Of a stretch of DNA of 64,000 nucleotides, positions 445-32,988 are shown in pieces. The DNA lies in NCBI GenBank assembly GCA_947493215.1, contig CANLQE010000002.1, positions 186,001 through 250,000 on the forward strand, read 5' to 3'. The position numbers and the translations under genes are program-made. The notes beneath the pieces are model-generated. The model did no database searches. It saw only the letters and a program-made list of their open reading frames with translations, and was not told the origin of the DNA. This DNA comes from an uncultured Sphingomonadaceae bacterium. Lineage in GTDB: Bacteria; Pseudomonadota; Alphaproteobacteria; Sphingomonadales; Sphingomonadaceae. The stretch's first letter is position 1; each line of letters opens with the position of its first letter.

Positions 445-460
445 ATATGTCCGGACAAAT
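445..460. promoter_or_regulatory. Operator site 1, TTGTCCGGACAA family
   Basis: ATATGTCCGGACAAAT, one mismatch from the consensus ATTTGTCCGGACAAAT. It lies upstream of the leftward membrane-protein gene. Read leftward, a TATAGT-like -10 element directly follows it, as expected for a repressor site inside a promoter. Confidence 0.7.
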
Positions 461-468
461 TGCAATGG

Positions 469-933
469 TTAGTCGCGCAGGCGATGCTCATCGCACAAGG
501 TACGCTTGAACAACCGTCCATCCTTAAACCAATGCCAGGTCCGCGCGCGGTGATGGCCATCGTCGCCGAGACAGATAATCTCATAGAAATTTGCACCGGG
601 ATCATCCTTGCGATTGAGGTTGAGCAGGATCAGGCCAAAGTCGGTTTCCCAAGCGCAGCCATCAAAATTTTCATTATCCCACCACAGCTTGCCATCGCGC
701 AGCACACCGTTCAGCGTGGAGCTATATTCGCGACCATCATCCCATCGAAACAGATTTTTCTGGATATAGGCATAGGGCCCTTCGCTAGGAAAAATGCACT
801 CCACGCGGGCCTGATGTTGATCGACTAGTTTGTTGTCGGTGTCGACGTGACGATACACACCGATCCATGTTCCCTCGTGTTTCATCATGCCGGGCATAAT
901 GTCCGTCAGTATCGCTCTATTTTTAAGATTCAC
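469..933 (-). CDS. Calycin/DUF3598-like protein of unknown function, copy 1
   Basis: A 154-residue soluble protein from a GTG start; GTG is chosen because the N-terminus then aligns with its paralogue. Visible conserved blocks are KHEGTW near residue 18, a YxQ.N..RWDDG segment, KLWWDNENFDG, and the C-terminal RTWHWFKDGRL. The 166-residue protein at 19951-20451 shares all of these (HEGVW, WWDNE, RTWHWIRNG), so the two are clear paralogues inside one island. The pattern resembles small lipocalin/calycin-like beta-barrel families, but the substrate is unknown. Its 3' end is followed by operator site 1 and the next leftward gene. Confidence 0.75.
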   Translation of the reverse strand: MNLKNRAILTDIMPGMMKHEGTWIGVYRHVDTDNKLVDQHQARVECIFPSEGPYAYIQKNLFRWDDGREYSSTLNGVLRDGKLWWDNENFDGCAWETDFGLILLNLNRKDDPGANFYEIICLGDDGHHRARTWHWFKDGRLFKRTLCDEHRLRD

Positions 934-1061
934 GCCCTAATACCCTTGTTTCTCGACATAATTTGGCTTCCGTTAGGCGACATGATAGGACGCAGCTAAC
1001 AACCGGTATTGGATTTTGCACAGCCATTGATTGTGGCGATATCGAGTGGAAGGAACTGATC

Positions 1062-2051
1062 ATGGACCAACCTGACCTGCGTCAGCGTTTTATCAAGCCG
1101 TCGATGGATCCACAGAAATTACAGCATTTTCTCTCGGTCTATGACACTGGAAGCTTTTCCCGCGCTGCAAGCAATAATGATGTCAGCCAGCAAGCGGTTT
1201 CCAAAAGCGTGGCCAAGCTCGAAGAAAGTCTCGGCGTCAGATTGTTCGAGCGCGGCGCCTTTGGTGCGGAGCCTACGCGTTTTGGCCATGCGCTGGCGCG
1301 GCGGGCCAAGGTCATCACGGCAGAAAGCCGTCTGGCTGCAGCAGAGATCAGCGCTTTGCGCGGCGCAGATCGCGGTTATGTACGAATCGGGCTGGGTTGG
1401 TCTTTCCTCACCAGAATTGCGCCGCTGGTGATCAACCGGTTCAACGAAAAACAGCCCGGTGTCACGCTCAGCATCACCTCTGGCGATAGCAGGTCGCTCT
1501 ATGATAAATTGCTACGCGGAGAAGTCGAGTTTGTCGCCAGCGCGCCGCCCACCGACCTTGAAATCGACAATGCCATCGAGACGACAGAAATGTTCGAGGA
1601 CCGGGATGTCATCATGATGCGCCGTGACCACCCTCTGGCGTCAAAGGACGCGGTAACTTTGGAAGACCTCGCTGCACAGACATGGCTGGTCTCGATGCAG
1701 CTTCAGATGCAATGGGAGCGCGTCTGCAACATTTTTCTCGCCGCGGGCCTCGCCCCGCCAAGCCGGTATGTTGATATGGATTCGGTTATCCTCGCCAAAT
1801 CCACCCTGTTACAAAGCGATGCGGTTATGCTGCTAGCGAAGGAATTATTCGCAACCGAGGAAGAGCAAGCGCAATATCACATTATCGAGGAGACAGAATT
1901 TCCTGTCGCCCGTACCGCTTATTTTGCAATGCGCCGTAATTCGGTGCTGCAACCGGTGGCGCAAACCCTGAAAAACGAACTGATCACTGCGTGTCGCGCT
2001 GTGCTTGATCCCCGTTTACTGCGCGGCATCACTGTGGCGGAAAAACCATAA
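1062..2051 (+). CDS. LysR-family transcriptional regulator
   Basis: A 329-residue LysR regulator. The winged helix-turn-helix spans about residues 15-75 (LQHFLSVYDTGSFSRAASNN, QQAVSKSVAKLEESLGVRLFERG). A substrate-binding domain of about 230 residues follows. The ATG at 1062 is preceded by AAGGAA; an ATG at 1104, right before the HTH, is an alternative. The gene lies between a divergent calycin-like gene and the TonB receptor it precedes, so it may sense the pathway substrate. It is not obviously the protein that binds the even-spaced TTGTCCGGACAA palindrome, since LysR boxes usually follow T-N11-A. A different palindrome lies just behind it at 2080-2099. Confidence 0.9.
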   Translation: MDQPDLRQRFIKPSMDPQKLQHFLSVYDTGSFSRAASNNDVSQQAVSKSVAKLEESLGVRLFERGAFGAEPTRFGHALARRAKVITAESRLAAAEISALRGADRGYVRIGLGWSFLTRIAPLVINRFNEKQPGVTLSITSGDSRSLYDKLLRGEVEFVASAPPTDLEIDNAIETTEMFEDRDVIMMRRDHPLASKDAVTLEDLAAQTWLVSMQLQMQWERVCNIFLAAGLAPPSRYVDMDSVILAKSTLLQSDAVMLLAKELFATEEEQAQYHIIEETEFPVARTAYFAMRRNSVLQPVAQTLKNELITACRAVLDPRLLRGITVAEKP

Positions 2052-2079
2052 ATGTAAGAAAACCCCACTTGGTTGTGAC

Positions 2080-2099
2080 TAACAGCCAATTGGTTGTTA
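2080..2099. promoter_or_regulatory. Imperfect 20-bp palindrome between the LysR gene and the TonB receptor
   Basis: TAACAGCCAATTGGTTGTTA, symmetrical except for one base pair, starting 29 bases after the LysR stop codon. The block TTGGTTGT also appears 21 bases earlier (2069-2076 and 2090-2097), so two copies sit on the same helix face. A LysR binding region is possible. Confidence 0.4.
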
Positions 2100-2137
2100 G
2101 CGTTATCCCTATCAAGAAGATTAGCCCTGTTTCCTCA

Positions 2138-2155
2138 AATTTGTCTGGACAAATT
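2138..2155. promoter_or_regulatory. Operator site 2, upstream of the TonB receptor
   Basis: AATTTGTCTGGACAAATT, identical to the consensus palindrome except for one central base (T for C). It ends 49 bases before the receptor start codon. Confidence 0.75.
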
Positions 2156-2204
2156 GAATGATATTCAAGCATTCTACCAAAGTCCGGAACCAGGGAGACA
2201 AAAA

Positions 2205-4706: not shown

Positions 4707-4800
4707 ATTCAGCAATATGCCTGATATCATTTAGATCCGGACGGTCGGTAAAATGGTATCTAACTTGCGCTTTAATGTGGCGGCACAATCGCATAGACCA

Positions 4801-4841
4801 AAGGGGAAGCTGGGCATTTGACCGCCTGTCTTCCCTTTTTT
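4801..4841 (+). terminator. Candidate rho-independent terminator after TonB receptor 1
   Basis: AAGGGGAAG at 4801-4809 can pair with CTTCCCTT from 4830, leaving one bulged G. The loop is about 20 bases and the element ends in six T residues (4836-4841). The long loop makes it only moderately convincing. Confidence 0.45.
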
Positions 4842-4850
4842 AGACTTTTG

Positions 4851-4892
4851 ATAGCGCTACGATTAAAAGGCGCTATAGTTGTCCGGACAAAT
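4851..4892. promoter_or_regulatory. MFS-operon promoter region with inverted repeat and operator site 3
   Basis: ATAGCGC (4851-4857) and GCGCTAT (4870-4876) form a 7-bp inverted repeat. The operator AGTTGTCCGGACAAAT (4877-4892) abuts it directly. A TATAGT -10-like hexamer overlaps the junction, so a protein on the operator would cover the transcription start. The start codon of the transporter is 20 bases downstream, with GAGGGT as ribosome site. Confidence 0.65.
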
Positions 4893-4912
4893 TTTAGAAT
4901 CTTAGAGGGTGC

Positions 4913-6205
4913 ATGACAGACCAGAACACAAGCAGTAACGAATTTGCGATGGGCTGGAAAGTCCTCCTCGCCGGTGTTCTGGGCGTGGCCTGCGGGGCCT
5001 CTCCCATACCCTTCAATGTCATCGGTTTTACGGTCGAACCGCTCATTGAAGAATTCGGCTGGACCCGGACTCAGATATTGTTTCCAATCACGATTTTCGG
5101 CATTATTGCCTCTTTGTTGGCACCGTTCTTCGGATCACTCGCGGATAAATATGGCGTCCGGAAAGTCGCGCTATATTCTCTCTTAGCCTTTGGTCTTTCT
5201 TTTGCGGCAATATCTTTCACGCCGACGGCACAGGTCACTTCGACGCTCTATATTTATTACGCGCTATGGGTCGTTGTTGGGTTAATTGGCATTGGTTCGA
5301 CCCCGGTGAGCTGGAGCCGTGCAATTAATCTGTGGTTCTACAAAAATCGTGGATTAGCATTGGGCATCTTACTGCTCGGGACCAGCCTCGCTGCGATTGC
5401 AGTTCCCAAACTTGCCGTATGGGGCATTGAAAATTATGGCTGGCGCTCAATGTTTGCGATTGTTGCTATGCTACCGCTATTCGTAGCTTTGCCAATCGGA
5501 TATTTTCTGTTTCGCGAGCCGCGTCCCGAGGAAAGGCCCAAAGCTATCTTGAGCGACAGCGGCAATCTGACCGGTGTGACTTTGGGAACGGCTTTGAAAG
5601 ACTATCGTTTCTGGCTGATCTGGTTATCAATTGCGGTGATTGCCACGGCTTTTGGTGGTGCGTTTATCAATTTACCAACCATGCTAGGGGATCGCGGGCT
5701 TGACGCCCAGACGGCGGCCTCGGTGATGGGTGTGTTAGGCATTGGCATATTGTCAGGGCGGATTATCACTGGCGCACTGCTCGACCGATTCTGGCAGGGA
5801 TTCGTAGCCTTTCCGCTACTCTGCCTGCCCGCCATTTCCTGTTATCTTCTGCTCGGCGATACTATTGCCTTTCCGATGGCGGCGTTGGCCGCTTTTCTGC
5901 TCGGCTTTGCAGCGGGTGCGGAAAGCGATCTGATCGCTTATCTCACTGGCCGCTATTTCGGCATGGCCAATTACGGCAAGATTTATGGCATGCTCTACAT
6001 GCCCTTTGGTTTTTTCTCGGCCTTGTCACCGATTATCTATGCCAGCGTACGCGATAATATGGGCAGCTACGACCCGATCCTGAGCGTGGCAATTTTTGGC
6101 TTTGTCATCGGCGGTGGGCTGTTATTGTTCCTCGGGCGCTATCCCGACAGCTTACCTGAAACCGATCCTTCTCCCACGAGCAAACTTGCAATGGAGCAAA
6201 GCTGA
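4913..6205 (+). CDS. MFS transporter 1
   Basis: A 430-residue major facilitator with about 12 hydrophobic segments. The loop 2-3 signature is visible as GSLADKYGVRKV near residue 75, and a charged central loop (REPRPEERPK) separates the two halves. It is the first gene of an operon controlled by operator 3, and its stop codon overlaps the next start (TGATG). It most likely carries the pathway substrate, or an acid derived from it, across the inner membrane after uptake by the TonB receptor. Family members of this type often move monocarboxylates or aromatic acids; the substrate here is unknown. Confidence 0.9.
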   Translation: MTDQNTSSNEFAMGWKVLLAGVLGVACGASPIPFNVIGFTVEPLIEEFGWTRTQILFPITIFGIIASLLAPFFGSLADKYGVRKVALYSLLAFGLSFAAISFTPTAQVTSTLYIYYALWVVVGLIGIGSTPVSWSRAINLWFYKNRGLALGILLLGTSLAAIAVPKLAVWGIENYGWRSMFAIVAMLPLFVALPIGYFLFREPRPEERPKAILSDSGNLTGVTLGTALKDYRFWLIWLSIAVIATAFGGAFINLPTMLGDRGLDAQTAASVMGVLGIGILSGRIITGALLDRFWQGFVAFPLLCLPAISCYLLLGDTIAFPMAALAAFLLGFAAGAESDLIAYLTGRYFGMANYGKIYGMLYMPFGFFSALSPIIYASVRDNMGSYDPILSVAIFGFVIGGGLLLFLGRYPDSLPETDPSPTSKLAMEQS

Positions 6206-7755
6206 TGGCCACGAAAGCCAACCCCACCGCAACCCAATATATTGCCGATAGCGGCGCGGAGGTTTTAACCGATAGCGATACTCTGAATTTCTATGCGCAT
6301 GATGTCTATCAGCGCGGTGCTGACTTGCTCGCTGTCGTGCGTCCGAAAGACAAGAATGAGTTATCTGCCGCGATTGCCGCGACCACGGCGCAAAATATTC
6401 CTGTAGTCCCGCGCGGTGGCGGGATGAGCTATACTGGTGGTTATACGACCACCAAAGCAGGTGCGGTATTATTTGATCTGGCCGCGATGGACCAAATATT
6501 GGAAATTAATGAGACCGACATGACGGTCACCGTAGAGGCGGGCTGCACTTGGGCAAAGCTTTATGAGACGCTCGCGTCCAAGGGGTTACGCACGCCGTTT
6601 TGGGGAACCTTGTCAGGCCTGAAAGCATCCATCGGCGGCGGGATGAGCCAGAACTGTCTGTTCTGGGGATCGGGCCGCTATGGCACGGCAGCACAAAGCT
6701 GCATTGCGATGGAAGTTGTGCTGGCCGATGGCACCATCCTCAAAACCGGCGCAAATTTCACGCGGCCTTATGGGCCCGACCTGACCGGACTGTTTTTGGC
6801 TGACACAGGTGCGCTGGGCATGAAAGCGACCATCACGCTGCGCCTGATTCCCGAAGCCGATGCACATGGATATGCCAGCTTCACCTTTGAAAATCACAAG
6901 GACATATTGGCGGCAATGGGCGCGATTGAGCGATCCGGTGTCTCAACCGAATGTTTCGGGTTCGACCCCAGCCTGAACGCCCTGCGGATGAAGCGCGACA
7001 GTCTGGGCAGCGATGCCAAGGCGCTGGGCCAGATGATGAAGAAGCAGGGTTCTGTCTGGGGCGCGATCAAGGAAGGCGCAAAGGTTGTCGCGGCGGGCCG
7101 TGATTTCATGGACGAAGCGAAATTCTCGCTGCATGTATTGACCGAAGCGCGAATACAGGCGGCGGCGGATGACGACCTCGAACGCGCCCGCAGGCTGGCT
7201 TTGGACAACGGCGCGACCGAGACTGAAAATACCATTCCCAAAATCATCCGCGCCAATCCATTCGGACCGTTGAACAGCATGCTGGGGCCGCAAGGCGAAC
7301 GCTGGGCGCCAGTTCACGGCTTGCTACCACATAGTCGCGCATTGGCATGCTATGATGCCATTCTCGCTTTGTTTGAAGAGCATAAAGAAGAAATGGATCG
7401 CCACGGAATTTTCACCGGTACTCTTGTTTCAGCTGTCAGCGGCTCGGGCACGATTATCGAACCGTGCCTCTATTGGCCAGATGCGTCTAATCCGGTCCAT
7501 GAGGCATCGATCGAGCCTTCCCATTTTGCGAAACTGCCGACCTTAGAGAGCAATGCAGAGGCTTGGGCATTTACCCAGAAGCTGAAGCAAGCACTTGTCG
7601 ACCTGTTCCACGATCAGGGCGCGGCGCATTTGCAGATCGCGAAAACCTATCGCTATCGCGATAGCCTAGATTCCGCTGCAGATGCTCTGTTGCAAGATTT
7701 GAAAAAAACCGTTGATCCAAAGGGTCTTATGAATCCGGGATCACTGGGTTTATAG
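6205..7755 (+). CDS. FAD-linked oxidase (VAO/PCMH, GlcD-like)
   Basis: A 516-residue flavoprotein. The PCMH-type FAD domain fills about residues 40-220, with PRGGGMSYTGGYTT near 70 and SIGGGMSQNCLFWGSGRYGT near 140. The substrate-binding cap follows, ending in the usual DPKGLMNPGSLGL tail. Families with this layout oxidise 2-hydroxyacids, phenolic side chains (vanillyl-alcohol type) or similar CH-OH and CH-NH groups. It is translationally coupled to MFS transporter 1, which suggests it acts first on the imported compound. No signal peptide is seen, so it is cytoplasmic. Confidence 0.88.
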   Translation: MATKANPTATQYIADSGAEVLTDSDTLNFYAHDVYQRGADLLAVVRPKDKNELSAAIAATTAQNIPVVPRGGGMSYTGGYTTTKAGAVLFDLAAMDQILEINETDMTVTVEAGCTWAKLYETLASKGLRTPFWGTLSGLKASIGGGMSQNCLFWGSGRYGTAAQSCIAMEVVLADGTILKTGANFTRPYGPDLTGLFLADTGALGMKATITLRLIPEADAHGYASFTFENHKDILAAMGAIERSGVSTECFGFDPSLNALRMKRDSLGSDAKALGQMMKKQGSVWGAIKEGAKVVAAGRDFMDEAKFSLHVLTEARIQAAADDDLERARRLALDNGATETENTIPKIIRANPFGPLNSMLGPQGERWAPVHGLLPHSRALACYDAILALFEEHKEEMDRHGIFTGTLVSAVSGSGTIIEPCLYWPDASNPVHEASIEPSHFAKLPTLESNAEAWAFTQKLKQALVDLFHDQGAAHLQIAKTYRYRDSLDSAADALLQDLKKTVDPKGLMNPGSLGL

Positions 7756-7761
7756 AACAGG

Positions 7762-8916
7762 GTGGACTTTGACCGCAGACAGATGATGGCCGCGGCGCTT
7801 TGCGCCACTGTCACGCCGCCTGTTTTTGCCGCGACCGGAAAGAGTGATAAAGACAAAACCATGACCGAAAACAAAAACTACGCCGCCGTCGCCATGCAAT
7901 TGGCCGCACGATCGATTGAGAAAACGCCCGACAAAGCCACTGCCCGCGCGCAAATGCTGGCGATGATTGGTGAGGTCGAAACCAAAATTCGTTCCGCCAC
8001 TATTTTCATTCAGCAATATGCCGGTAGTCCGGTCAAGCTGGCGGTGCTGCCGGAATATTTGCTGACCAGCTATCCCGGGCGCATCTCCATCCCTGATTTT
8101 GCCGACAAGGCTGCACTCGAAGTTGATGGACCGGAATATGAGGCGCTAGGTGCCATGGCGCAGCGTTTGAAAATGTTCATTGCTGGCAATGCCTATGAAG
8201 TGGACAGCAATTTCCCGGGCCTCTATTTTCAGGCGAGCTTCGTCATCGCGCCTTCCGGTGATGTCCTGCTGCGCTATCGCCGGCTCAATTCCATGTTCGC
8301 GCCCACACCCCATGATGTCTGGTCGAAATATCTCGATATTTATGGTCTCGACGGCGTCTTTCCGGTGGCGAAAACAGAGATCGGCAATATCGCGGCCATT
8401 GCATCGGAAGAAATCCTCTATCCCGAAATCGCCCGCGCCCATGCGCTGCGCGGCGCAGAAGTTTTCGTCCATAGCTCTTCAGAAATCGGATCGCCGCTCG
8501 ACACGCCCAAGGATATCGGCAAACGCGCCCGGGCACAGGAAAATATGGCTTATGTCATATCCGCCAACACCGCCGGTATTGAAAACACTACGCTCCCGCT
8601 CGCCTCGGCGGACGGCAACAGCATGGTGGTGGACTATAAGGGCCGGGTGATGTCGGAATCCAACAGCGGCGAGACTTTTACCGCCTTTGCCGATATCGAT
8701 ATCGGGGCGCTACGTGCAGCTCGACGCAAACCGGCAATGACCAATTTTCTCGCGCGCCAACGGCTAGAACTCTTTGCAGCGACTTATAGCGATTTGTCCG
8801 TACAAAAAGCCGATGGATTGATCCAGAACAATGCAATCCAGTCGCCAGATCGCGATTATTTTTTGAGAACACAGGAAGAAACCATAGAACGCATGATCAA
8901 GGATGGTCTGATATGA
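7762..8916 (+). CDS. Nitrilase-superfamily protein with altered catalytic triad
   Basis: A 384-residue protein from a GTG start 6 bases after the oxidase. The N-terminus DRRQMMAAALCATVTPPVFA resembles a Tat signal peptide; an internal ATG (MTENKNY) at 7861 would give a cytoplasmic form. The carbon-nitrogen hydrolase fold is recognisable: the catalytic Glu is in VLPEYLLTSYPG. Where the family has Lys (YRK) this protein has YRRLNSMF. Where the family has the nucleophile Cys (C.E/D...PE) it has IASEEILYPE, with a TCG serine codon at 8404-8406. It may therefore be non-catalytic or an unusual Ser enzyme. The last bases overlap the methyltransferase start by ATGA. Confidence 0.8.
   Translation: MDFDRRQMMAAALCATVTPPVFAATGKSDKDKTMTENKNYAAVAMQLAARSIEKTPDKATARAQMLAMIGEVETKIRSATIFIQQYAGSPVKLAVLPEYLLTSYPGRISIPDFADKAALEVDGPEYEALGAMAQRLKMFIAGNAYEVDSNFPGLYFQASFVIAPSGDVLLRYRRLNSMFAPTPHDVWSKYLDIYGLDGVFPVAKTEIGNIAAIASEEILYPEIARAHALRGAEVFVHSSSEIGSPLDTPKDIGKRARAQENMAYVISANTAGIENTTLPLASADGNSMVVDYKGRVMSESNSGETFTAFADIDIGALRAARRKPAMTNFLARQRLELFAATYSDLSVQKADGLIQNNAIQSPDRDYFLRTQEETIERMIKDGLI
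8792..8807. promoter_or_regulatory. Operator-like sequence inside the nitrilase-like gene
   Basis: ATTTGTCCGTACAAAA differs from the operator consensus at two positions and lies within codons for DLSVQK. It could be an intragenic site or chance. Confidence 0.2.
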
Positions 8917-10157
8917 CAAAGATAACCCCGCAGGATCAAAAGCTGGACGTCGCCCCGCCCTATAACGCAGTGGCCCGTCACGGCGTATCGCCACAGCCTT
9001 CGCACGACGAAATCGCACGCTTTGATTTCCTCGCTAATTTTAACAAATTCCTGTCCGGTGCACTTGGACCGGGCAATAAGCAGGCCTATGACAAGCGCGT
9101 CCTGCCCGGTTTCGAGAAAGAGCATGGCCGTGAACCCCAGGATCGCTTTGAGATTCGCCACGCCATGAACGAAGATCCATTTCACACATTCTGGTCGGCG
9201 CTGAAACGCAATTCGATGGAAATGCGCCAGCAAAATGGCCGGGCAATGGTGCTGCGCCAGATTGACGAACTGAATGCCAAGGCGAGGCAGTTTAATGAGG
9301 GTCGCGATACACTGGAGCTGCATCCCGAAATCGACGTGCCGCGCTATCAGAGCGCGGTCGACATTCACTGCATGCCCGGCAGCTATCATGGTGAAGAACT
9401 GGCCGGAGATATCTCTGCCGGTGCTAATTATGATTGCGGTATTTTTGCGACCACAGCAGGCGGCCTTGGCGCCCTATCCGATGGCGGTGGTCAAGCGCTG
9501 GTTGAATGGATCAAGAAAGAACGCCCCGGATGGGAACCACGACGGGTGCTAGATATCGGTACCACGGTAGGTCATAACATTGTCCCGCTGGCGCTCGCTT
9601 TTCCCAATTGCGAGTTCATCGCGATCGATACCGCCGCACCGATTTTGCGCTATGCCCATGCCCGCGCGCAGTCGCTGGGTGCGACCAATATCAAGTTTAT
9701 TCAGGCCAATGCCGAGGACCTGTCCCGCTGGGATGATGGTGCGTTTGACTGGGTGCAAACGACCATGTTCTTGCATGAAACGAGCGGCAAAGCGCTGCCG
9801 AAAATTATCACCGAAGGCTATCGCGTGCTCGCCGACAACGGTTTGATGCTGCATCTGGAACAGCCGGAATATTCCGATGCCATGCCTCTGTTTGAACAGT
9901 TTTTGCGGGACTGGGATGCGTTTAACAACAATGAGCCGTTCTGGTCTTCGATGCACGCGCTTGATATGAAAACGGTGATGACCGACGCTGGGTTTGACCG
10001 GGAAGAACTTTTCGAAAGCGGCGTCCGCGCTGTAGTGGATCGCGAGATTTTCCTCGAAGCACCAACCGGCGAGGATGAAGACCATGGCCGTGCTGCCTAT
10101 TGGCATGCTTATGGTGCATGGAAAAATGCCGATCAGATGCAGGAGGCAGCAGAATGA
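8913..10157 (+). CDS. Class I SAM-dependent methyltransferase, copy 1
   Basis: A 414-residue protein with an alpha-helical N-terminal domain of about 150 residues, a conserved EIDVPRYQ...HCMPGSYHGE block, and then a Rossmann methyltransferase domain. Motif I is VLDIGTTVGHNIVPLA, with Thr where most families have the second Gly, followed by an acidic residue in FIAIDTAAP. The motif IV area is FDWVQTTMFLHE. It is a paralogue of the protein at 13373-14560, which has the same domain order. Each copy is coupled by ATGA to a small helical protein. The methyl acceptor is unknown; presence in a catabolic operon suggests action on a pathway intermediate. Confidence 0.85.
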   Translation: MTKITPQDQKLDVAPPYNAVARHGVSPQPSHDEIARFDFLANFNKFLSGALGPGNKQAYDKRVLPGFEKEHGREPQDRFEIRHAMNEDPFHTFWSALKRNSMEMRQQNGRAMVLRQIDELNAKARQFNEGRDTLELHPEIDVPRYQSAVDIHCMPGSYHGEELAGDISAGANYDCGIFATTAGGLGALSDGGGQALVEWIKKERPGWEPRRVLDIGTTVGHNIVPLALAFPNCEFIAIDTAAPILRYAHARAQSLGATNIKFIQANAEDLSRWDDGAFDWVQTTMFLHETSGKALPKIITEGYRVLADNGLMLHLEQPEYSDAMPLFEQFLRDWDAFNNNEPFWSSMHALDMKTVMTDAGFDREELFESGVRAVVDREIFLEAPTGEDEDHGRAAYWHAYGAWKNADQMQEAAE

Positions 10158-10516
10158 CTGATACCCCTTTCGACTGGATGGCGGCGGCCAATAAAAAGGC
10201 AAAAGGCAAGCGCCCGGAATATTTTGACGATCCCGAAGACGAACGGATGTTGTCGATCCTGATGGCGGTTGTTGGCGAAGTGTCCGTGCTGCGTGAGCGC
10301 ATGGATACGGTCGAGCGCCTGCTGGATGCTAAAGGGACCATCAGCCGGGATGATATTGAGAGTTATGCTCCGGACAAACAAGCCGCCTATGAACGCGGCG
10401 CGATGATCCGCGAGTATATTTACCGCGTCATGCGCGGCCCGCATCAGATGGTGCAGGAACTCGAGCAGGTCGAACCGCCGGTTGAAGAAATTAGCCAGGA
10501 ACTGAAGGAAATCTAA
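10154..10516 (+). CDS. Small helical partner protein, copy 1
   Basis: A 120-residue charged protein starting at the ATG at 10154 (AGGAGG just upstream), overlapping the methyltransferase stop by ATGA. It contains the block RPEYFDDPEDERMLSILMAVVGEVSVLRERMDTVERLL, which is predicted helical, and a Glu-rich tail. A matching block (KPKFFDDPGMDRF...WVQEERLMALEGL) is in the 103-residue protein at 13065-13376, again directly behind a methyltransferase of the same family. I do not recognise a named domain. The repeated pairing suggests a subunit or chaperone of the methyltransferase. Confidence 0.75.
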   Translation: MTDTPFDWMAAANKKAKGKRPEYFDDPEDERMLSILMAVVGEVSVLRERMDTVERLLDAKGTISRDDIESYAPDKQAAYERGAMIREYIYRVMRGPHQMVQELEQVEPPVEEISQELKEI

Positions 10517-10528
10517 AAGTCCGAGCCC

Positions 10529-11221
10529 CTAAAAGGGTTTGACCGCTCCTAAAAAACAAACGCCGGAAATCGTGATCCAGTAGATGTAGGCGGCGAAGCG
10601 TGCCTGGCCAATCTCCCGTTCCAACGCCGCTTCTTCCGCCGCATCGGGGCCCAGGGCCAATATCCGAAAGCGGGCTGTCCAACGGCGCATGACGAGACGC
10701 AGGAATAGACCAATGCACAACGCAAAAGCATAAAGACCGATTTTGGCCGGATACCAGTGATTGCCTTCGCCGGACATTATCGGCCCACTGCCGCCGAAAG
10801 CCATGAATGCAACAATGAACAATGCGGCAATCAGGGGATAGCGCAGCCACTCTTCCAGCCTCGTTACTGTCACACCGATATCGGTCTCTCGCTTGATAAA
10901 CGCAGTCCATGTCATCGCCAGCCAAACCGCAAAAAACAGCCACATCCACCATATTCCCGTACCATCCAGAAATGGTACGAAGCCATAAATTTTTCCCATA
11001 TGCAGGCCAAGCGGTAACAGTAAAACAATGCCGGTTCGCGCCAATATATCGATCCGGTAAGCCGTTTCCATATGACGCCGCCGCTCTTCCAGCGACAGTT
11101 CGCGATTGGTGACATTATAGCTGGTCTGGAACACGCCCCATTCGCCGCCCAGCCAATAGACCATCGCCAAAATATGTACCCAACGCAAAATACTTAGTTC
11201 ATTTGCCGTCAGAAATTCCAT
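10529..11221 (-). CDS. Integral membrane protein, paralogue of the left-edge gene
   Basis: A 230-residue protein with about six hydrophobic helices, e.g. ILARTGIVLLLPLGLHMG and IWWMWLFFAVWLAMTW. The N-terminal RWVHILAMVYWLGGEWGVF matches the partial protein at 1-401. A histidine in VHIL and another in GLHMG are conserved-looking and could bind haem or metal, as in CopD-like proteins, but this is speculation. It faces the methyltransferase operon and starts 39 bases from operator site 4, shared with the divergent 11331 gene. Confidence 0.78.
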   Translation of the reverse strand: MEFLTANELSILRWVHILAMVYWLGGEWGVFQTSYNVTNRELSLEERRRHMETAYRIDILARTGIVLLLPLGLHMGKIYGFVPFLDGTGIWWMWLFFAVWLAMTWTAFIKRETDIGVTVTRLEEWLRYPLIAALFIVAFMAFGGSGPIMSGEGNHWYPAKIGLYAFALCIGLFLRLVMRRWTARFRILALGPDAAEEAALEREIGQARFAAYIYWITISGVCFLGAVKPF

Positions 11222-11259
11222 TATTTGCGCCCTCCCAGACCGTGAAAACTCCTGACGTC

Positions 11260-11277
11260 AATTTGTCCGGACAAATT
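11260..11277. promoter_or_regulatory. Operator site 4, perfect 18-bp palindrome in a divergent promoter
   Basis: AATTTGTCCGGACAAATT is a perfect palindrome and the best copy in the window. It lies 39 bases from the leftward start (11221) and 53 bases from the rightward start (11331). A second small inverted repeat, CTCTTG-G-CAAGAG (11279-11291), begins one base later. Confidence 0.8.
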
Positions 11278-11330
11278 CCTCTTGGCAAGAGAAAAATGCA
11301 CTGGCATGAAGAAAAGCAAGGAGAAGAAAC

Positions 11331-12059
11331 ATGAAGCACCGCATTATCGAAGGCCGTCTGGAATATACGTCTCGCAAACCCGAGATGATGGGCCATAATC
11401 GCGGATTTGAGACATTTATGTTTACCCATCACGGTGATGGCAAAGTGATTATGCGGGCCCATTGTGAAATCTATGAGCCAGAGCCTACGGTGATGCGGGA
11501 CATCATCTATGCGATGGATGGAAATAAGCAGCCCACTGACCTTCATGTGCATTTGACTATCGGGGATGCGTTCATGGGCACCGGCTGGATGCATTTTGAC
11601 GGGAAGGATATCGCTATGGAAAGCTATGGCCCTTCCATCGGCCGGCTTTCCCAGAAAGTTGAGGCAGAGCTTCCCATGACCGGTTTTGGAACCCATCCGA
11701 TTGTTTCAGACGGCTATATGCTCTCGACGATGGGGTGGGAGGAAGGCCAAGCCCGCTTGCTCAATTGCTATCTACCCTCGCCCGATCATCGCGGAGCGAC
11801 ACCGCCCCAAATCGCACAGGTCAAAATCGGGGCGGTCTATATTGGCAAGGAAGAAGTGACCGTTCCCGCCGGAACCTTCCAGTGCAAACATCTGCAATTT
11901 GTCGACGATGCCAGCATTGTGCCGGGAACCGGCGGCATGGCGGGCGAACATCCCGCCTATGATGTCTGGATTACCGATGATGAAGACGGCATATTCGTGC
12001 AGGGCGGCGTCGGCGGCTATATGATGACCTGGTACGAGCTTGCCGAGCTTAAACGGTAA
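11331..12059 (+). CDS. DUF3108-like beta-rich protein, function unknown
   Basis: A 242-residue cytoplasmic protein with a good ribosome site (AAGGAGAAGAAAC). The segment EEVTVPAGTFQCKHLQF in the C-terminal half resembles the VPAGTF turn of DUF3108-type beta-barrel proteins. The rest is rich in aromatic and glycine residues (GGVGGYMMTWYEL at the end). It is the only gene rightward of operator 4; its last 11 bases overlap the end of the convergent MDR reductase gene. A binding or isomerase-like role is possible but cannot be assigned. Confidence 0.6.
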   Translation: MKHRIIEGRLEYTSRKPEMMGHNRGFETFMFTHHGDGKVIMRAHCEIYEPEPTVMRDIIYAMDGNKQPTDLHVHLTIGDAFMGTGWMHFDGKDIAMESYGPSIGRLSQKVEAELPMTGFGTHPIVSDGYMLSTMGWEEGQARLLNCYLPSPDHRGATPPQIAQVKIGAVYIGKEEVTVPAGTFQCKHLQFVDDASIVPGTGGMAGEHPAYDVWITDDEDGIFVQGGVGGYMMTWYELAELKR

Positions 12060-13068
12060 TCATGATCTTGCCCATATGGGCACCGCTTTCCAGATGGGTG
12101 AAAGCCGCAGGGGCATCGCCGAAATCAAAAACGTTCTCAACCAGCAGCTCGATATTATTTTGCGCGACCACATCCAGCGCATGCTGCAACATCTGACGAT
12201 TCCCGGACGCGATGCCCTTGATGGCTATATTCTTGCCAATGATCGCACCCTGGCTGGCGCTGGATTGATCTTGTGGTGTCCCGGAAAGCGCGCCCAGAGA
12301 ACCGATGCGTGCATTAACGGCGCACGCAGCCACGGTTTCCCCCATCGCCGGAAAGCCCAGCGTATCGACGACGACATTGGCGCCGCGGCCGTTGGTGGCT
12401 TCCAGTAAAGCAGCGGCCCAATCCGGCCGGCCGCGATAATTAATGCCATAGTCGGCACCCATATCTTTTGCGCGAGCGAGTTTTTCGTCGCTTGACGAGG
12501 TGATTGCAAATTCCATGCCCATGGCTTTGGCCAGTTGTAGCGTGAATATCGATACACCGCCGGTGCCTTGCGCGAGCACAAGATCGCCCGGCTTGGCGTC
12601 GCCAAAAGCGATCATCGCATGCCAGACAGTGCTGCCAACCACCGCAAAGGTCGCCGCACTGCTGTCACTGACATTTTCAGGCACTATGATAGCGGCATTG
12701 GCCGGTAATATGATTTTCTCGGCCAGCCAGCCATTTGCCGTCACGCCAAGGTCCCTGCCAAACACCGCAAAACTATAGGCACCATCCAGCCATGTCGCGA
12801 AATGCGGTGCCATCACGCGCATGCCGACATCCAGTCCCGAGACATCAGCACCTACGGCTTCAATGACGCCGACGCCATCGGACAAAGGTACACGATCTTC
12901 CGGCAAGTCCGTGCCATAATCTCCCCGCAGCACCATCAGGTCACGGTAGTTGAGACCTGCCGCTGAAACCTTGACCAGAATTTCTCCGGGACCAGGCTCG
13001 GGTTCGCGGTGATCGGCCAGTTGCAGCCCGCCAATGCCGGTCCGTGATCCCATTTGCCATGCCTTCAT
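12049..13068 (-). CDS. MDR-family NAD(P)H-dependent oxidoreductase (zinc-independent)
   Basis: A 339-residue medium-chain dehydrogenase/reductase. The GroES-like domain (about residues 25-130) has AAGLNYRDLMVLRGDYG, typical of quinone-oxidoreductase-like members that lack catalytic zinc. The Rossmann domain carries VLAQGTGGVSIFTLQLAKAM, where GTGGV is the nucleotide-binding turn. It is the last gene of the leftward operon and its ATG overlaps the stop of the small partner protein. Likely roles are reduction of an enoyl or keto intermediate or oxidation of an alcohol, paired with the aldehyde dehydrogenase upstream. Confidence 0.88.
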   Translation of the reverse strand: MKAWQMGSRTGIGGLQLADHREPEPGPGEILVKVSAAGLNYRDLMVLRGDYGTDLPEDRVPLSDGVGVIEAVGADVSGLDVGMRVMAPHFATWLDGAYSFAVFGRDLGVTANGWLAEKIILPANAAIIVPENVSDSSAATFAVVGSTVWHAMIAFGDAKPGDLVLAQGTGGVSIFTLQLAKAMGMEFAITSSSDEKLARAKDMGADYGINYRGRPDWAAALLEATNGRGANVVVDTLGFPAMGETVAACAVNARIGSLGALSGTPQDQSSASQGAIIGKNIAIKGIASGNRQMLQHALDVVAQNNIELLVENVFDFGDAPAAFTHLESGAHMGKIMITV

Positions 13069-13376
13069 GTGTCGTCACTCCCTTGCTCGCGCAGCGGCGC
13101 GAAAATACGGTCAATAAATTCTTTCAGCTTCTTTTCCCGGTCGGCGTCGGACGCCTGCAACCCTTCGAGCGCCATCAGCCGCTCTTCCTGAACCCACATT
13201 TCCTGCGCCATATTCATGACGACAGCGACAAAGCGGTCCATGCCGGGGTCGTCGAAAAATTTTGGCTTGCCGTCCGGACCATAGATATCCTTCGGCGTGT
13301 CGTCGGGTTTAAATGCCGGGCCGGGGCTGTGTATATCAGTACCCATGTCTTTCCGGCTCATCTCTTCCCCGCTCAT
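13065..13376 (-). CDS. Small helical partner protein, copy 2
   Basis: A 103-residue charged protein. The start at 13376 is chosen because its ATG overlaps the methyltransferase stop (ATGA), exactly as in copy 1; the frame is open a little further upstream. The core GKPKFFDDPGMDRFVAVVMN and the following QEERLMALEGL align with copy 1 (10154-10516). The stop overlaps the MDR start by ATGA, so the three genes are translated as a chain. No known domain recognised. Confidence 0.72.
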   Translation of the reverse strand: MSGEEMSRKDMGTDIHSPGPAFKPDDTPKDIYGPDGKPKFFDDPGMDRFVAVVMNMAQEMWVQEERLMALEGLQASDADREKKLKEFIDRIFAPLREQGSDDT

Positions 13377-14560
13377 TTCTTCCACGCGCCAAAACCGAAC
13401 CACATAATGCCTTCGGCCAGCCGTCCGGTGGTTTCACTATCGACCGCATTGGCGTTTTCATCCGCGATGGCCTGCGCCACTGCTTCCTCGCCATAAATGC
13501 CGATGCTGGGCACGACGAACTGGAAATAGTCATCCGCCGCAAATCCGCCCGCCTTGCACAATTCCAGAGGACTTTCATCGCGATAGCCCTTGTAAAAAGG
13601 TTCCGAATTATACCAGCTGTCCCAGTCGAGATAGAAACCGTCAAAGGCATTCATCTGGTCATTGGGTGGCAATTCCATATGGAGTAGCAATCCGCCCGGT
13701 TTGAGCACCCGATAGGCTTCCTCAAACGCTGCTGCACGCGCCTTTTTCGACAATTCGTGCAGGAACATGGAGGAAAAGACGAGGTCAAAACTGGCGTCGG
13801 CATAGTCCAGCGCATCGGCCGACATTTGCGCAAAATGGACATCCTGTCCCTGCATTTTCGCGCGCGCCGAGGCATAGCGCAGGCCGCCGGCCGCCGCGTC
13901 AATCGCTTCGACCTTTGCGTCGGGATAGGTCTGTTTCCACGGCAAAGTATTATGGCCAATGGTGCAGCCGGTATCGAGAATGCTCTGCGGCTTAAAGTCT
14001 GGGAACTTGCCCTTCACATAGGCGGCCATGGACAGGCCGATATCATCAAGATTGGCCCCCATCAGACCCATGGAGAACACGGCCAGCCCCTGATCATAGA
14101 CCGCGCCGGCCTCTAGCGATTCGCCGCCGCGCGTATAGCTGCCGGGCATCAGATGCACTTCGATCGCATCGACATTGCGGGGAATATCCAGATCAGGATT
14201 CAAGTCTACAGAGCCGGGCCGCTCGGCAACTTTGGCGGCTTCTGCTTCCAGCCGTTCGATATCCCGGGCCACCACATCGCCCGACGCTTGCCAGACCATT
14301 TTCTGCGCCTGCACCCGCATGACCGAATAGATGTTGAACGCCGGATCACCGCGCAGGGCGAGATGCGCCTCGTTGCTGGTTTCCGGGGCGCGGCCCTTTG
14401 CGCGCGCAAAGGCCGGGGCCGCACGCTTGTCATAAGCGGTGCGCAAATCACCAGCCAGATCATTCAGGATAAACGCCCTGATCCCGGACACAAAGCGCCC
14501 GCGGGCCGCTTCTTCGGCCGTCAGTTCCGGTTTCATCGGATGTTGTAATTCCACGCCCAT
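13373..14560 (-). CDS. Class I SAM-dependent methyltransferase, copy 2
   Basis: A 395-residue paralogue of the 8913-10157 protein with the same order: helical N-terminal domain, DLDIPRNVDAIEVHLMPGSY block, then the Rossmann domain. Motif I is ILDTGCTIGHNTLPW and the acidic post-strand-2 residue is in [23 protein letters not shown] marks motif IV. Both copies carry T-x-GHN after the first glycine, so this is a family trait rather than decay. It overlaps the aldehyde dehydrogenase stop by one base (TGATG). The two copies may form a heteromer or act on successive intermediates. Confidence 0.85.
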   Translation of the reverse strand: MGVELQHPMKPELTAEEAARGRFVSGIRAFILNDLAGDLRTAYDKRAAPAFARAKGRAPETSNEAHLALRGDPAFNIYSVMRVQAQKMVWQASGDVVARDIERLEAEAAKVAERPGSVDLNPDLDIPRNVDAIEVHLMPGSYTRGGESLEAGAVYDQGLAVFSMGLMGANLDDIGLSMAAYVKGKFPDFKPQSILDTGCTIGHNTLPWKQTYPDAKVEAIDAAAGGLRYASARAKMQGQDVHFAQMSADALDYADASFDLVFSSMFLHELSKKARAAAFEEAYRVLKPGGLLLHMELPPNDQMNAFDGFYLDWDSWYNSEPFYKGYRDESPLELCKAGGFAADDYFQFVVPSIGIYGEEAVAQAIADENANAVDSETTGRLAEGIMWFGFGAWKK

Positions 14561-15981: not shown

Positions 15982-15991
15982 GCCTGTGCCT

Positions 15992-16915
15992 TCATCTTTG
16001 GGCCTTCCAGCTATCGAGTATCGCATCACCCCGTGCGAACCCGATATCATTGCGCTCAGCAAGTCCAGCAATCAACTTCTCAAAACTGCTAATCCGATAG
16101 GGCAGTCCCATAATATAGGGCGTCAGATGCATGGGCAGCATTCGCCCGCCATATTGCTCTGCCTCTGCGAGCAGCCAGTCCGCCGCATCGGTCATCTGTT
16201 GCGCATAGCTATCGACCGATTGCTGCTGGACATTGACAATCTGCCTGTCCGATAATTCATGGTTGAGCGGGACATTGGTGATCGCTCCCGCGTCCGTTTG
16301 AAATGCATAAGGCAGTTCGTCATTGGCCCAGTCACACATATAATCGACACCAGCCTCGGCGAGCAATTTTGCAGTATTGAAACTCTGCGAACGCGCTATC
16401 GACAACCAGCCGCGTGGTCGCGTTCCGGTCGCTTTTTCCAGCGCCGTGAGTGAACCCTCGATTAGCGCTTTCTCCTCCGCCTCGGCCAGTCCGCTAGCAA
16501 TAGTGCCGTTCATGTTGGTGCTATGCGCGATAATCTCATGGCCACCGGAGATGATGTCCTCAACCAACTGCGGGTAGCGCTCAGCGATGACGCTATTGGT
16601 CGCCACTGAAACCTTCGCGCCAACCTTCTCAAACGCGCCAAGCAACCGGTAAATCCCAATCCGCGTGCCATATTCGCGCGCGGTATAATGGCGATAGTCG
16701 GGATAGGCGGTCTGCATATGCCCCGGCGCGCGAAACGGATCGTCGTTCGGCGTCATCGGGAAATATTCGAGGGAGATGACCGGCCAAATCAGCAGCTTTT
16801 TGCCGTCGGGCCATTGCACCGGCTTGCGATCAAACAGACTACTATAGGGATAATAGTCATGGTCCATCCCGCGGCCACGCTTGGGATAGTCGAGATAGCT
16901 GAGATCAAGGCTCAT
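15992..16915 (-). CDS. PuuE-like polysaccharide-deacetylase-fold hydrolase, copy 1
   Basis: A 307-residue NodB-fold protein. It shows the WPDGKKLLIWPVISLEYFP start, GGHEIIAHSTNMNG, and RGWLSIARSQSFNTAKLLAEAGVDYMCDW typical of the allantoinase PuuE/cyclic-amide branch. The second histidine of the sugar-deacetylase H-x3-H motif is absent (HSTNM), as in metal-independent PuuE. It is coupled by ATGA to copy 2 upstream. A role in opening a cyclic amide, ureide or imide is more likely than polysaccharide deacetylation. The substrate is unknown. Confidence 0.82.
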   Translation of the reverse strand: MSLDLSYLDYPKRGRGMDHDYYPYSSLFDRKPVQWPDGKKLLIWPVISLEYFPMTPNDDPFRAPGHMQTAYPDYRHYTAREYGTRIGIYRLLGAFEKVGAKVSVATNSVIAERYPQLVEDIISGGHEIIAHSTNMNGTIASGLAEAEEKALIEGSLTALEKATGTRPRGWLSIARSQSFNTAKLLAEAGVDYMCDWANDELPYAFQTDAGAITNVPLNHELSDRQIVNVQQQSVDSYAQQMTDAADWLLAEAEQYGGRMLPMHLTPYIMGLPYRISSFEKLIAGLAERNDIGFARGDAILDSWKAQR

Positions 16916-17805
16916 GATGCGCCTCCCGTCTGTTTGCGGAAGGCATCGACAATATCACCTGCTTTGGTGATCCATGCCCGGCCATCCGCGGCGATATGTT
17001 CCAGCACCGCCTCAAACGGTCCAATCCGGTGGGGTTGACCAATTAAATAGCTGTGGAGCGGGATACACATCACAGTGCCAGATTGCGCGCCCTCCTCTGC
17101 CAGTCGGTTATATTGCCGGATCAGCGTATCGGCATATTCCCGCGGCGACATGTTGTAGATGAAAAAGCCATAATGATCGTTGACCTCAAGGCTGTAGGGA
17201 ATGGCGGTCAGCTGGCCGGATTTCACCTTTACGTCGGTCGGCTGGTCATCATGATAAAGGTCGCAGGTATAATCCATGCCATATTCCGCGAGCAGATCGA
17301 GCGTACGCGGCGTGTGGGTCAGCGCCGGCGCCAGCCAACCTCTGATCCGTTGGCCAGTAGCACGCTCTACGGTCGCAATCGAATCCTCGATAATAGCGCG
17401 TTCCTGCGCCTCATCCATTCCATAAGAATAGCGCGTATTGTATATGCCATGGCTAAAAAACTCCCAGCCGCGTTGCTTGGCATCTTCGACCACTTCGGGA
17501 ATATGATCACACAAAGCCACGGACAGACTTACCGATCCGGGAAAGCCATGTTTGGTCATCATCTCCGCCATCCGCCAGTGCGATACACGATTGGCATGAT
17601 CGCGGTGGCTGTAGCCGACCACATCGGGATGCGGCTTTGGCCAACTCTTCCGGTGTGGATTGACCGCCGGATCGAGCTCGTAAAATTCAAGATTGGGGGC
17701 AACCCATACGGCACAGGTCTTACCGTCCGGCCACTTGATTTTCGGGCGTCCACGATAGGGCGCATAATCATATAATCCCGGGTCCGATTTCTGCACGTCT
17801 GACAC
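16912..17805 (-). CDS. PuuE-like polysaccharide-deacetylase-fold hydrolase, copy 2
   Basis: A 297-residue paralogue of the next gene, from a GTG start whose G is the last base of the upstream TAG. Shared blocks are KWPDGKTCAVWVAPNLEFYE, GWEFFSHGIYNTRYSYGM, RGWLAPALTHTPRTLDLLAEYGMDYTCD and IPLHSYLIGQPHRI. As in copy 1, the position four after the catalytic-loop His is not His. Two such proteins translated in tandem suggest a heteromeric cyclic-amide hydrolase or two successive hydrolyses. It follows the isochorismatase-type amidase directly. Confidence 0.82.
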   Translation of the reverse strand: MSDVQKSDPGLYDYAPYRGRPKIKWPDGKTCAVWVAPNLEFYELDPAVNPHRKSWPKPHPDVVGYSHRDHANRVSHWRMAEMMTKHGFPGSVSLSVALCDHIPEVVEDAKQRGWEFFSHGIYNTRYSYGMDEAQERAIIEDSIATVERATGQRIRGWLAPALTHTPRTLDLLAEYGMDYTCDLYHDDQPTDVKVKSGQLTAIPYSLEVNDHYGFFIYNMSPREYADTLIRQYNRLAEEGAQSGTVMCIPLHSYLIGQPHRIGPFEAVLEHIAADGRAWITKAGDIVDAFRKQTGGAS

Positions 17806-18485
17806 TAGCGCGCCTCCAGCCAGTCAACCACCGTCTGCACCGGCTCCACATCTGCATATTTAATCTGCAAGTCGGTCAGGTTAGCAAAATGATAGCTTTC
17901 ATGCTTGTCCGCACAGGTTTCGATTGGAACGATCGTGCGATAACCATAGCTCAAGGCATCCACCGCTGTTGCGCGGACGCAGCCGGATGTCGAACCGCCG
18001 GTGACAATCACCGTATCCACTTTATGCCACGTCAAATAGCTCGCCAGCTGGGTTTCAAAAAAGGCGCTCGGCATGCGCTTGGTATATTGCAGGTCATCGG
18101 CATCGACCTCGCAACGCGGATCAAGCTTATGCCGTTCGCTGCCATATTTGATATTCTGCAACGAATCTTCGGTATCGGTGCGCGTGCCCCAGACACCGGC
18201 ATCTCCCGCATCCGCTTTATAAGCGACGCGGCTCCAGATCACCGGCATCGCCTTGGCCCGTGCCAAAGCCGATATCTGATTAATATAGTCAATCTGCTTC
18301 GGATCAGTCTCATAGGCGGTTTTGAACATATCCATCCGGGTATAGGCCTGCTGCACATCAACATTGACGATGGCGAGCTTTTCTCCGAAGCCGAACTTCT
18401 TGCGAGCTGGGTTACCAATCAACTCTTCAAAAATATCCCGGGCCGTCCGCCCGTCTTCAACCATTTTCGTGCCTTTGACGTCCAT
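17805..18485 (-). CDS. Isochorismatase-family cysteine amidohydrolase
   Basis: A 226-residue enzyme starting at the ATG at 18485 behind GGAGAG. The Asp-Lys-Cys triad is intact: Asp in AIVNVDVQQAY, Lys in YTKRMPSAFF, and Cys in GGSTSGCVRATAVDA. Family members hydrolyse N-carbamoylsarcosine, maleamate, ureidoacrylate or nicotinamide; an N-carbamoyl or half-amide substrate fits the PuuE-like genes downstream. It opens the leftward seven-gene operon, and its 5' region holds the tandem operators at 18533-18562. Confidence 0.9.
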   Translation of the reverse strand: MDVKGTKMVEDGRTARDIFEELIGNPARKKFGFGEKLAIVNVDVQQAYTRMDMFKTAYETDPKQIDYINQISALARAKAMPVIWSRVAYKADAGDAGVWGTRTDTEDSLQNIKYGSERHKLDPRCEVDADDLQYTKRMPSAFFETQLASYLTWHKVDTVIVTGGSTSGCVRATAVDALSYGYRTIVPIETCADKHESYHFANLTDLQIKYADVEPVQTVVDWLEAR

Positions 18486-18532
18486 AAATATTCTCTCCGG
18501 AATCGATAAAAATGTAATAAACAACAGAAAAG

Positions 18533-18562
18533 ACTTGTCGAGACAAATTTGTCCGGACAAAT
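18533..18562. promoter_or_regulatory. Tandem operator sites 5 and 6 in a divergent promoter
   Basis: ATTTGTCCGGACAAAT (18547-18562) is a perfect consensus site. ACTTGTCGAGACAAAT (18533-18548) has the same arms with a changed centre; the two share two bases and their centres are 14 bases apart. They control both the leftward amidase operon and the rightward hydrolase operon. Site 5 ends only 9 bases before the rightward ATG and overlaps a TATAGA -10-like element (18562-18567). Confidence 0.78.
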
Positions 18563-19951: not shown

Positions 19952-20451
19952 TGGGAATCAAAGAAGACATGCCGCTTTTGGGTCGCCATGAAGGGGTTTG
20001 GGATGGCACCTACACATATTTCAATGCACAGAATGAGAAGATTGACGAACATACTTCCCGCCTGCTGTGCCGTCTGCCTGATGAAGGGGATATCCCTTAC
20101 CACCAGACCAACCATTATAAATGGGCTGACGGCAAAACAGAAATTCGCGAATTTCCTGCCGCTTATCACGACAAACGCATCTGGTGGGATAATGAGTTGA
20201 TCAAAGGCTGGGCCGCAGAAGTACCGCTAGACGAATATAACCGCACCATGATGTTGTATTGGCAGCGGCAAGGTGATCCATCGCTTTATCTTTATGAGCA
20301 GATCCAGATTTCCGATGACGGTCAGAACCGGTGCCGGACATGGCACTGGATTCGCAATGGAATGTTGGAAACACGAACGGCAATACAGGAGAGTTTTGTG
20401 ACCAAAGACTGGTGCAGCATTGATGCGGAAATGGGGGCTGTTTCTGCCTGA
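19951..20451 (+). CDS. Calycin/DUF3598-like protein of unknown function, copy 2
   Basis: A 166-residue protein whose ATG shares its A with the TAA of the hydrolase, behind AGGAAAA. It is the paralogue of the 469-933 protein, sharing GRHEGVWDGTY, NHYKWADGK, RIWWDNELIKGWAAE and CRTWHWIRNGMLETRT. In this copy the gene sits inside the operon between the hydrolase and the LeuC-like hydratase, so it is probably needed by the same pathway. No catalytic residues can be named. Confidence 0.78.
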   Translation: MGIKEDMPLLGRHEGVWDGTYTYFNAQNEKIDEHTSRLLCRLPDEGDIPYHQTNHYKWADGKTEIREFPAAYHDKRIWWDNELIKGWAAEVPLDEYNRTMMLYWQRQGDPSLYLYEQIQISDDGQNRCRTWHWIRNGMLETRTAIQESFVTKDWCSIDAEMGAVSA

Positions 20452-31306: not shown

Positions 31307-31364
31307 ATTAAATACCTTCCCTGAATGGAATATTCTGCAGGTCTTTTGACCCGTCGTTTTCGCG

Positions 31365-32946: not shown

Positions 32947-32978
32947 AATAGTTGACAAATCTCCCTGCTACACTTCTA

Positions 32979-32988
32979 TTGTATACAA
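32979..32988. promoter_or_regulatory. GntR operator 1 (TTGTATACAA)
   Basis: Perfect 10-bp palindrome between the racemase operon (leftward) and the GntR gene (rightward). The same sequence recurs at 34947-34956 in the other divergent promoter of this cluster. Confidence 0.75.

Follow-up and report, generated by a model that had tools for sequence, protein, structure and literature searches.

A palindrome, AAATTTGTCCGGACAAATTT, recurs near the start of a 64,000-nucleotide stretch of DNA from an uncultured Sphingomonadaceae bacterium (contig CANLQE010000002.1, hereafter C2, positions 186,001 to 250,000; this stretch is the window). We conclude that it is very probably the operator of a GntR-family regulator of the HutC subfamily, encoded at C2:178,934-179,713. 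The initial annotation of this DNA had called the regulator not evident, and within the window none is indeed favored; the candidate gene, hutC, lies 7 kb upstream of the window, on the forward strand and within the regulon (window -7066 to -6287, L007:12934-13713).

The palindrome marks a 50-kb gene cluster

In the 3,685,390-base genome, the pattern TTGTCYRGACAA occurs 13 times, and 12 of these occurrences fall within 50.6 kb (C2:153,999-204,560). The perfect core, TTGTCCGGACAA, has eight of its nine copies in the same stretch, and the reversed control of TTGTCYRGACAA occurs nowhere in the genome. When one mismatch is allowed, 36 places in the genome match compared with 28 for a control pattern, so single-mismatch copies outside the stretch are at about chance level. 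The palindrome itself is genuine and far above chance. In the window, the core with up to three mismatches appears 47 times versus 25.8 +/- 5.2 in 100 shuffles (maximum 40); the strong evidence is the near-exact copies rather than this excess. A weight matrix scan covering C2:126,001-250,000, with training sites that included those scored, returned 13 sites at 20 or above, with all but two of the remaining hits scoring at most 6.2. The genome scans thus demonstrate both the motif and its confinement to the cluster.

The initial annotation had proposed a regulon from six copies in the first 19 kb of the window. All six were recovered at their window positions by a sequence scan. With the starts as inferred, each falls between genes, no more than about 60 bases from a start codon. 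Good copies scattered through the genome, which the annotation had named as speaking against a regulon, were not what we found. Its scope was drawn too short, as the sites span about 50 kb and one outlying gene. Because the window begins at C2:186,001, 32 kb of the site cluster lie to its left.

The motif depends on the presence of HutC

The candidate regulator is a protein of 259 residues with an N-terminal GntR winged helix (PF00392, 60.8 bits; cut-off 27) and a C-terminal UTRA effector domain (PF07702, 58 bits; cut-off 23.8), and its nearest solved structure is NagR/YvoA (E 5.7e-16). HutC-subfamily operators mostly have GT and AC spaced by 4 nt (PMC4494728). The core TTGTCCGGACAA fits this frame as GT-CCGG-AC, with CG at the center in place of the TA of the subfamily consensus (PMC4494728). 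NagR reads G at -5 through Arg38 and G at -4 through Arg48 (PMC4333415). The aligned residues here are Ser51 and Arg61; the corresponding motif bases are T-5 and G-4. Among 19 HutC orthologs, the position of Ser51 is occupied by Ser, Thr or Ala, and Arg61 is invariant. This pattern agrees with the assignment of the operator to HutC, short of proof.

We then compared motif and regulator across 298 genomes of the family, our own included. HutC matches at E <= 1e-20 were found in 52 genomes. After inspection of the list, we placed a boundary at a gap in the E-values, separating 39 genomes with a close HutC (E 4.4e-45 or better) from 13 with a weak one (6.7e-30 or worse). All of the genomes with a close HutC carry at least one TTGTCYRGACAA (39/39) and nearly all at least two (37/39); the corresponding counts for genomes without a close HutC are 39/259 and 2/259. 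The 13 weak-HutC genomes have zero or one motif each, and 14 weak-HutC neighborhoods, totaling 231,837 bases, hold the motif just once. The dependence on HutC is also seen among genomes that hold a target enzyme, either an isochorismatase-family homolog (E <= 1e-50; 55/298) or an acyl-CoA dehydrogenase (E <= 1e-120; 51/298). At least two motifs are present in 37 of the 38 such genomes with HutC versus none of the 29 without.

The sites are conserved at corresponding promoters

Seven other clusters, each from another genus (G108, G285, G060, G246, G047, G218 and G204), encode a HutC 53-71% identical to ours, share many genes with our cluster and keep the motif at corresponding promoters. The absence of conservation in orthologous promoters, the other finding that the initial annotation had held would count against it, is therefore not what is observed. 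Across our own and these seven clusters, conserved coding stretches make up 77-95% of the spans, yet not one of 52 sites falls deeper than 75 bases into such a stretch. The CitE gene has a site in all eight clusters, and the divergent isochorismatase/hydrolase promoter in seven of eight (6/7 of the others); the exception is G204, where the isochorismatase-family gene sits elsewhere in the genome. The counterpart of the membrane protein gene memA has an exact site upstream in five of the seven other clusters, the TonB receptor that follows the site at window position 2141 has a site-preceded match (27-54% identity) in five of seven, and the divergent arrangement around the site at 11263 is seen in one of seven (G108).

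We observed the same association among named organisms. In the best 80 of 270 HutC loci (1.49 Mb), TTGTCYRGACAA occurs 146 times in 69 loci, and 126 of these are the exact palindrome. Of ten control palindromes of equal composition, nine occur in these loci zero times and one occurs once. The genera represented are Sphingorhabdus, Parasphingorhabdus, Sphingobium, Sphingomonas, Novosphingobium, Erythrobacter, Altererythrobacter, Blastomonas, Porphyrobacter, Sandarakinorhabdus and others; several of the 80 loci are near-identical, and some belong to genomes of the 298-genome set. GntR/HutC regulators often, though not always, have an operator at their own promoter. Around the start of hutC itself (-220 to +60), 32/79 loci have a motif-like site that scores no lower than the 99th percentile of control windows, compared with an expectation of about one. 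The AAAT/ATTT flanks of the palindrome are conserved across 177 non-redundant sites. As a separate observation, the hutC-matching stretch at L114:10001-10774 (Erythrobacter ani) contains one stop codon on translation as given.

A diverged HutC is preceded by its own palindrome

In five genomes (G085, G150, G242, G277 and G056), a different perfect palindrome, AAAAGTTCGAACTTTT, lies 5' of the gene for a diverged HutC (25-27% identical). These loci (L181:9912, L182:10829, L183:9912, L184:5047 and L186:9875) adjoin HyuA/HyuB genes, and four of the five have a module of acyl-CoA dehydrogenase (78-82%), MaoC and CitE nearby; the contig of the fifth ends early. A near copy of AAAAGTTCGAACTTTT lies about 72 bases 5' of CoA-transferase genes in G085, G150 and G242. 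The recognition helix reads SRYAVRGAL in the diverged HutC versus SRFTVREAL in the present clade. The two proteins, each with its own palindrome, may offer a naturally occurring pair in which to study DNA selection by HutC proteins.

Weighing the assignment

Several observations weigh against HutC as the regulator, or soften the evidence for it. In our own genome, the copy 5' of hutC scores a weak 6.2 (ATGTGCGGACAA), and no clear copy near the hutC start is seen in 47 of the 79 hutC loci; the matrix used for that comparison had been trained on sites including five that lie 5' of hutC. Two genomes without a close HutC, G203 and G023, have five scattered copies and two copies of the motif, respectively, and G072 carries 41 copies of TTGTCYRGACAA, most of which fall outside the cluster; their flanks vary in the stretches read (L162-L176). 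Only two of the 29 HutC-negative genomes in the enzyme comparison hold both enzymes and 27 hold one, so that comparison only partly disentangles HutC from the other cluster genes. Since hutC travels with the cluster, part of the genome association would be common to any cluster gene. The genomes are also related to one another, and the named-locus and hutC-start sets overlap the family set and were not thinned for near-identical loci. As for the diverged HutC, the genomes with AAAAGTTCGAACTTTT comprise four of one genus plus G056, and AAAAGTTCGAACTTTT is absent from G118, where a diverged HutC adjoins a like module.

The case of G203, which belongs to the same genus as our genome, can be followed further. 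Its five sites are on five contigs, one apiece, and four have poor flanks. The 19-kb stretches around them show no match to the cluster apart from 23-29% similarity to TonB receptors, and at the cut-offs used neither HutC (weak helix-turn-helix hits aside) nor the isochorismatase-family protein nor the acyl-CoA dehydrogenase is matched in this genome. This gap suggests that the island was gained or lost within the genus.

Three other explanations of the palindrome have to be considered. It could be bound by some other regulator, such as a TetR- or IclR-type protein with its gene in another part of the genome, leaving HutC to govern only part of the cluster, and the lack of a perfect copy upstream of hutC in our own genome would suit this arrangement. 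Such an unlinked regulator would, however, need to co-occur with HutC across genera. The change of palindrome where HutC is diverged and the motif-like sites at the hutC start in 32 of 79 loci also argue against it, and we regard it as unlikely. Less likely still, indeed very improbable, is that the palindrome is the box of the LysR-type regulator encoded at 963..2051 of the window (forward strand; Pfam HTH_1 and LysR_substrate; LysR-type boxes are of the T-N11-A kind), which the initial annotation had put forward as a candidate. This gene lies within the regulon and is flanked by two sites. The GT-N4-AC frame, however, is that of a HutC operator. We rejected LysR as the regulator of the motif because its conservation fails in six of the seven motif-bearing clusters: in the stretches compared, it is conserved in G285 (53%), and the others have no match or one of 24-27%. 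That the palindrome is part of a repeat element or terminator rather than a regulatory site, as the 41 copies of G072 with their varied flanks might hint, is the least likely of the three and highly improbable, given that the sites of the eight clusters avoid conserved coding DNA and face gene starts at corresponding promoters, and that AAAT/ATTT flanks are conserved across the 177 non-redundant sites. An FCD-type GntR protein encoded at 33044-33715 of the window was set aside as a candidate, being outside the site cluster and of a different subfamily.

Proposed mode of regulation

HutC-subfamily proteins are typically repressors released by a metabolite. NagR is one example (PMC4333415). By analogy with the family, from which we infer DNA binding, repression, metabolite release and operon structure, a HutC dimer would occupy operators near gene starts and block transcription. 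Binding of a pathway metabolite to the UTRA domain would cause HutC to leave its operators, and TonB receptors, MFS transporters and catabolic operons, about 15 units in all, would be turned on jointly. Most operators are about 10-70 bases 5' of inferred starts, and several are double or triple; given these positions near starts, polymerase blocking relieved by a metabolite is the simplest reading.

A HutC regulon is a known kind of system. NagR (YvoA) of Bacillus subtilis shares the GntR-UTRA make-up, the operator frame and the conserved G-4 with the system described here, and its dre-sites likewise have six nucleotides between the recognized half sites (PMC4333415). The pairing of G-5 with Arg38 in NagR differs from that of T-5 with Ser51 here, and native B. 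subtilis dre-sites are not perfect palindromes, whereas the sites here are nearly so (PMC4333415). No amino-sugar genes are among the Pfam-scanned proteins here. With HutC of Pseudomonas, the namesake of the subfamily, the likeness is the general operator frame (PMC4494728). That protein governs histidine utilization, whereas the targets here are CoA, amidase and MaoC/CitE-type enzymes; histidine-utilization enzymes are absent from the 60 Pfam-scanned proteins. PheR of Sphingobium (phenanthrene) is likewise a sphingomonad repressor with a catabolic cluster and TonB receptors, but it belongs to the IclR family and has a GCAACG motif (PMC13273656), in contrast to the GntR/HutC candidate here. 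We found no description of this regulator, operator or catabolic island in the literature searched, which comprised titles and abstract openings from incomplete listings that leave room for one, and a search on the motif letters returned nothing but an unrelated Drosophila paper.

A putative pathway for a nitrogen-containing compound

Judging by close gene spacing and the site positions, the regulon would comprise some forty genes in about 15 transcription units. The initial annotation took its region A, in the first part of the window, to be one pathway, which holds in the sense of a shared regulon; that it also forms one chemical pathway is plausible. The gene content indicates that the regulon probably serves the uptake and breakdown of a nitrogen-containing compound. 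The cluster holds six carbon-nitrogen hydrolases of four kinds: three of the PuuE/polysaccharide-deacetylase type, one isochorismatase-family protein, one amidase and one nitrilase-type protein. Two of the three PuuE-like proteins were scanned with the PuuE model and scored 249.9 and 107.1 bits (cut-off 424.6). By Pfam, the CitE operon encodes CoA-transferases, an acyl-CoA dehydrogenase, MaoC and HpcH/HpaI proteins, and the two divergent operons at 18.5 kb of the window encode an isochorismatase, two deacetylase-like proteins, an aldehyde dehydrogenase (ALDH), aconitase-family LeuC/LeuD-like proteins, an HMGL-like protein and a CoA-transferase. The LeuC/LeuD-like, HMG-lyase-like and CoA-transferase genes are a possible second cleavage module.

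This enzyme set suggests an amide or imide ring compound as the substrate, with its carbon released as methyl-branched dicarboxylic acids. Ring opening of cyclic amides or imides would fall to the PuuE-like hydrolases, the isochorismatase-family amidase, the amidase and the nitrilase-like hydrolase, and the LeuC/LeuD/HMG-lyase-like and MaoC/CitE modules would split the resulting methyl-branched dicarboxylic acids. Candidate substrates compatible with this reading would be alkyl-maleimides of tetrapyrrole origin or flavin-type rings. Itaconate degradation (ripB/ich and ripC/ccl) offers a comparison: the cluster MaoC matches RipB at 240.1 bits and CitE matches RipC at 215.5 bits. Neither reaches its curated cut-off (340 and 375, respectively), so the two proteins may have similar chemistry but are not assigned to these families. 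Taken as a whole, the proposal that an undescribed HutC-type regulator governs a likewise undescribed, patchily distributed sphingomonad pathway of about 50 kb for a nitrogen-containing ring compound is a tentative one, to which we give somewhat less than an even chance. The motif-bearing hutC loci come from at least ten named genera, whose environments may therefore commonly contain the substrate. With an orphan palindrome turned into a defined regulon that has a named candidate regulator, the question of the substrate becomes testable.

Sites and genes of the cluster

To the left of the window, single sites face a hypothetical gene at C2:153,999, a divergent hypothetical/amine-oxidase pair at C2:155,620 and a divergent CitE/DUF1838 pair at C2:184,667. 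Two sites face a TonB receptor (C2:160,590 and 160,621) and three a divergent TonB receptor/DUF1330 pair (C2:163,506, 163,553 and 163,747), the first of which scores 12.9. Within the window, the sites at C2:186,447, 188,141 and 190,879 face a membrane protein, a TonB receptor and an MFS operon, that at 197,263 a divergent pair, and those at 204,535 and 204,549 two long divergent operons. The outlying site, at C4:156,906, is 5' of an alpha/beta hydrolase that is 33% identical to one cluster hydrolase and, by the look of its N-terminus, exported. The large operon left of hutC has only a weak copy, at C2:178,869; it encodes two PrpD proteins, PaaK-like, amidase, HapK, SDR and GFA proteins, and further polysaccharide-deacetylase-like, enoyl-CoA hydratase and glyoxalase-family proteins.

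In window coordinates, the first copy (ATGTCCGGACAA, 447..458, one mismatch, matrix score 25.6) is 27 bases from the reverse-strand start at 419 of memA (C2:185715-186419). The second (TTGTCTGGACAA, 2141..2152, one mismatch, TG center) lies 52 bases 5' of the inferred start, at 2205, of a TonB-dependent receptor. A perfect core, TTGTCCGGACAA, at 4879..4890 is 22 bases 5' of the ATG at 4913 of the MFS gene, which opens a presumed operon of MFS, FAD oxidase, carbon-nitrogen hydrolase, methyltransferase and small protein genes (4913-10516). Another perfect core, at 11263..11274, sits between the divergent genes 10529-11221 (-) and 11331-12059 (+), 41 and 56 bases from their starts. At 18.5 kb, a copy with two mismatches (TTGTCGAGACAA, 18535..18546, score 20.6) is in tandem with a perfect core at 18549..18560, 11 bases 5' of the ATG at 18572. 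The perfect core divides a reverse-strand operon of isochorismatase-family, PuuE-like and ALDH genes from a presumed forward-strand operon (18572..24553) of alpha/beta hydrolase, small protein, LeuC-like, LeuD-like, HMG-CoA-lyase-like and CoA-transferase III genes. The first gene of the reverse-strand operon, an isochorismatase-family amidohydrolase by Pfam (17805..18560, -), has a listed TTG start that overlaps the operator; an ATG at 18485 is a plausible start. The closest solved structures to its product are N-carbamoylsarcosine amidohydrolases and isochorismatase-family hydrolases.

One weaker copy is internal to a gene. It has one mismatch (TTGTCCGTACAA, 8794..8805, score 17.1) and lies near the 3' end of the carbon-nitrogen hydrolase gene, about 110 bases 5' of the methyltransferase start. 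Its core is as good as those at 447 and 2141, so the view of the initial annotation that the window has no further full-quality copy needs correcting. An exact site is found 5' of the corresponding methyltransferase in G060, G218 and G285.

TATAAT-like hexamers occur 1-2 bases past the motif on 22 of 354 strands (offsets 13-14). We did not use them as evidence because they overlap the AT-rich flank of the motif, and the shuffled expectation (2.2) covers offset 14, not 13. Two proteins with a methyltransferase domain and a long N-terminal extension are encoded at 8913-10516 and 13065-14560 of the window, and each adjoins a small protein with no Pfam match. The stretch at 28781-39838, with a TonB receptor, the FCD-type GntR, HMG-lyase-like, CoA-transferase and HyuA/HyuB genes, is free of the motif here, but in G218 its counterparts are within the cluster that carries the motif.

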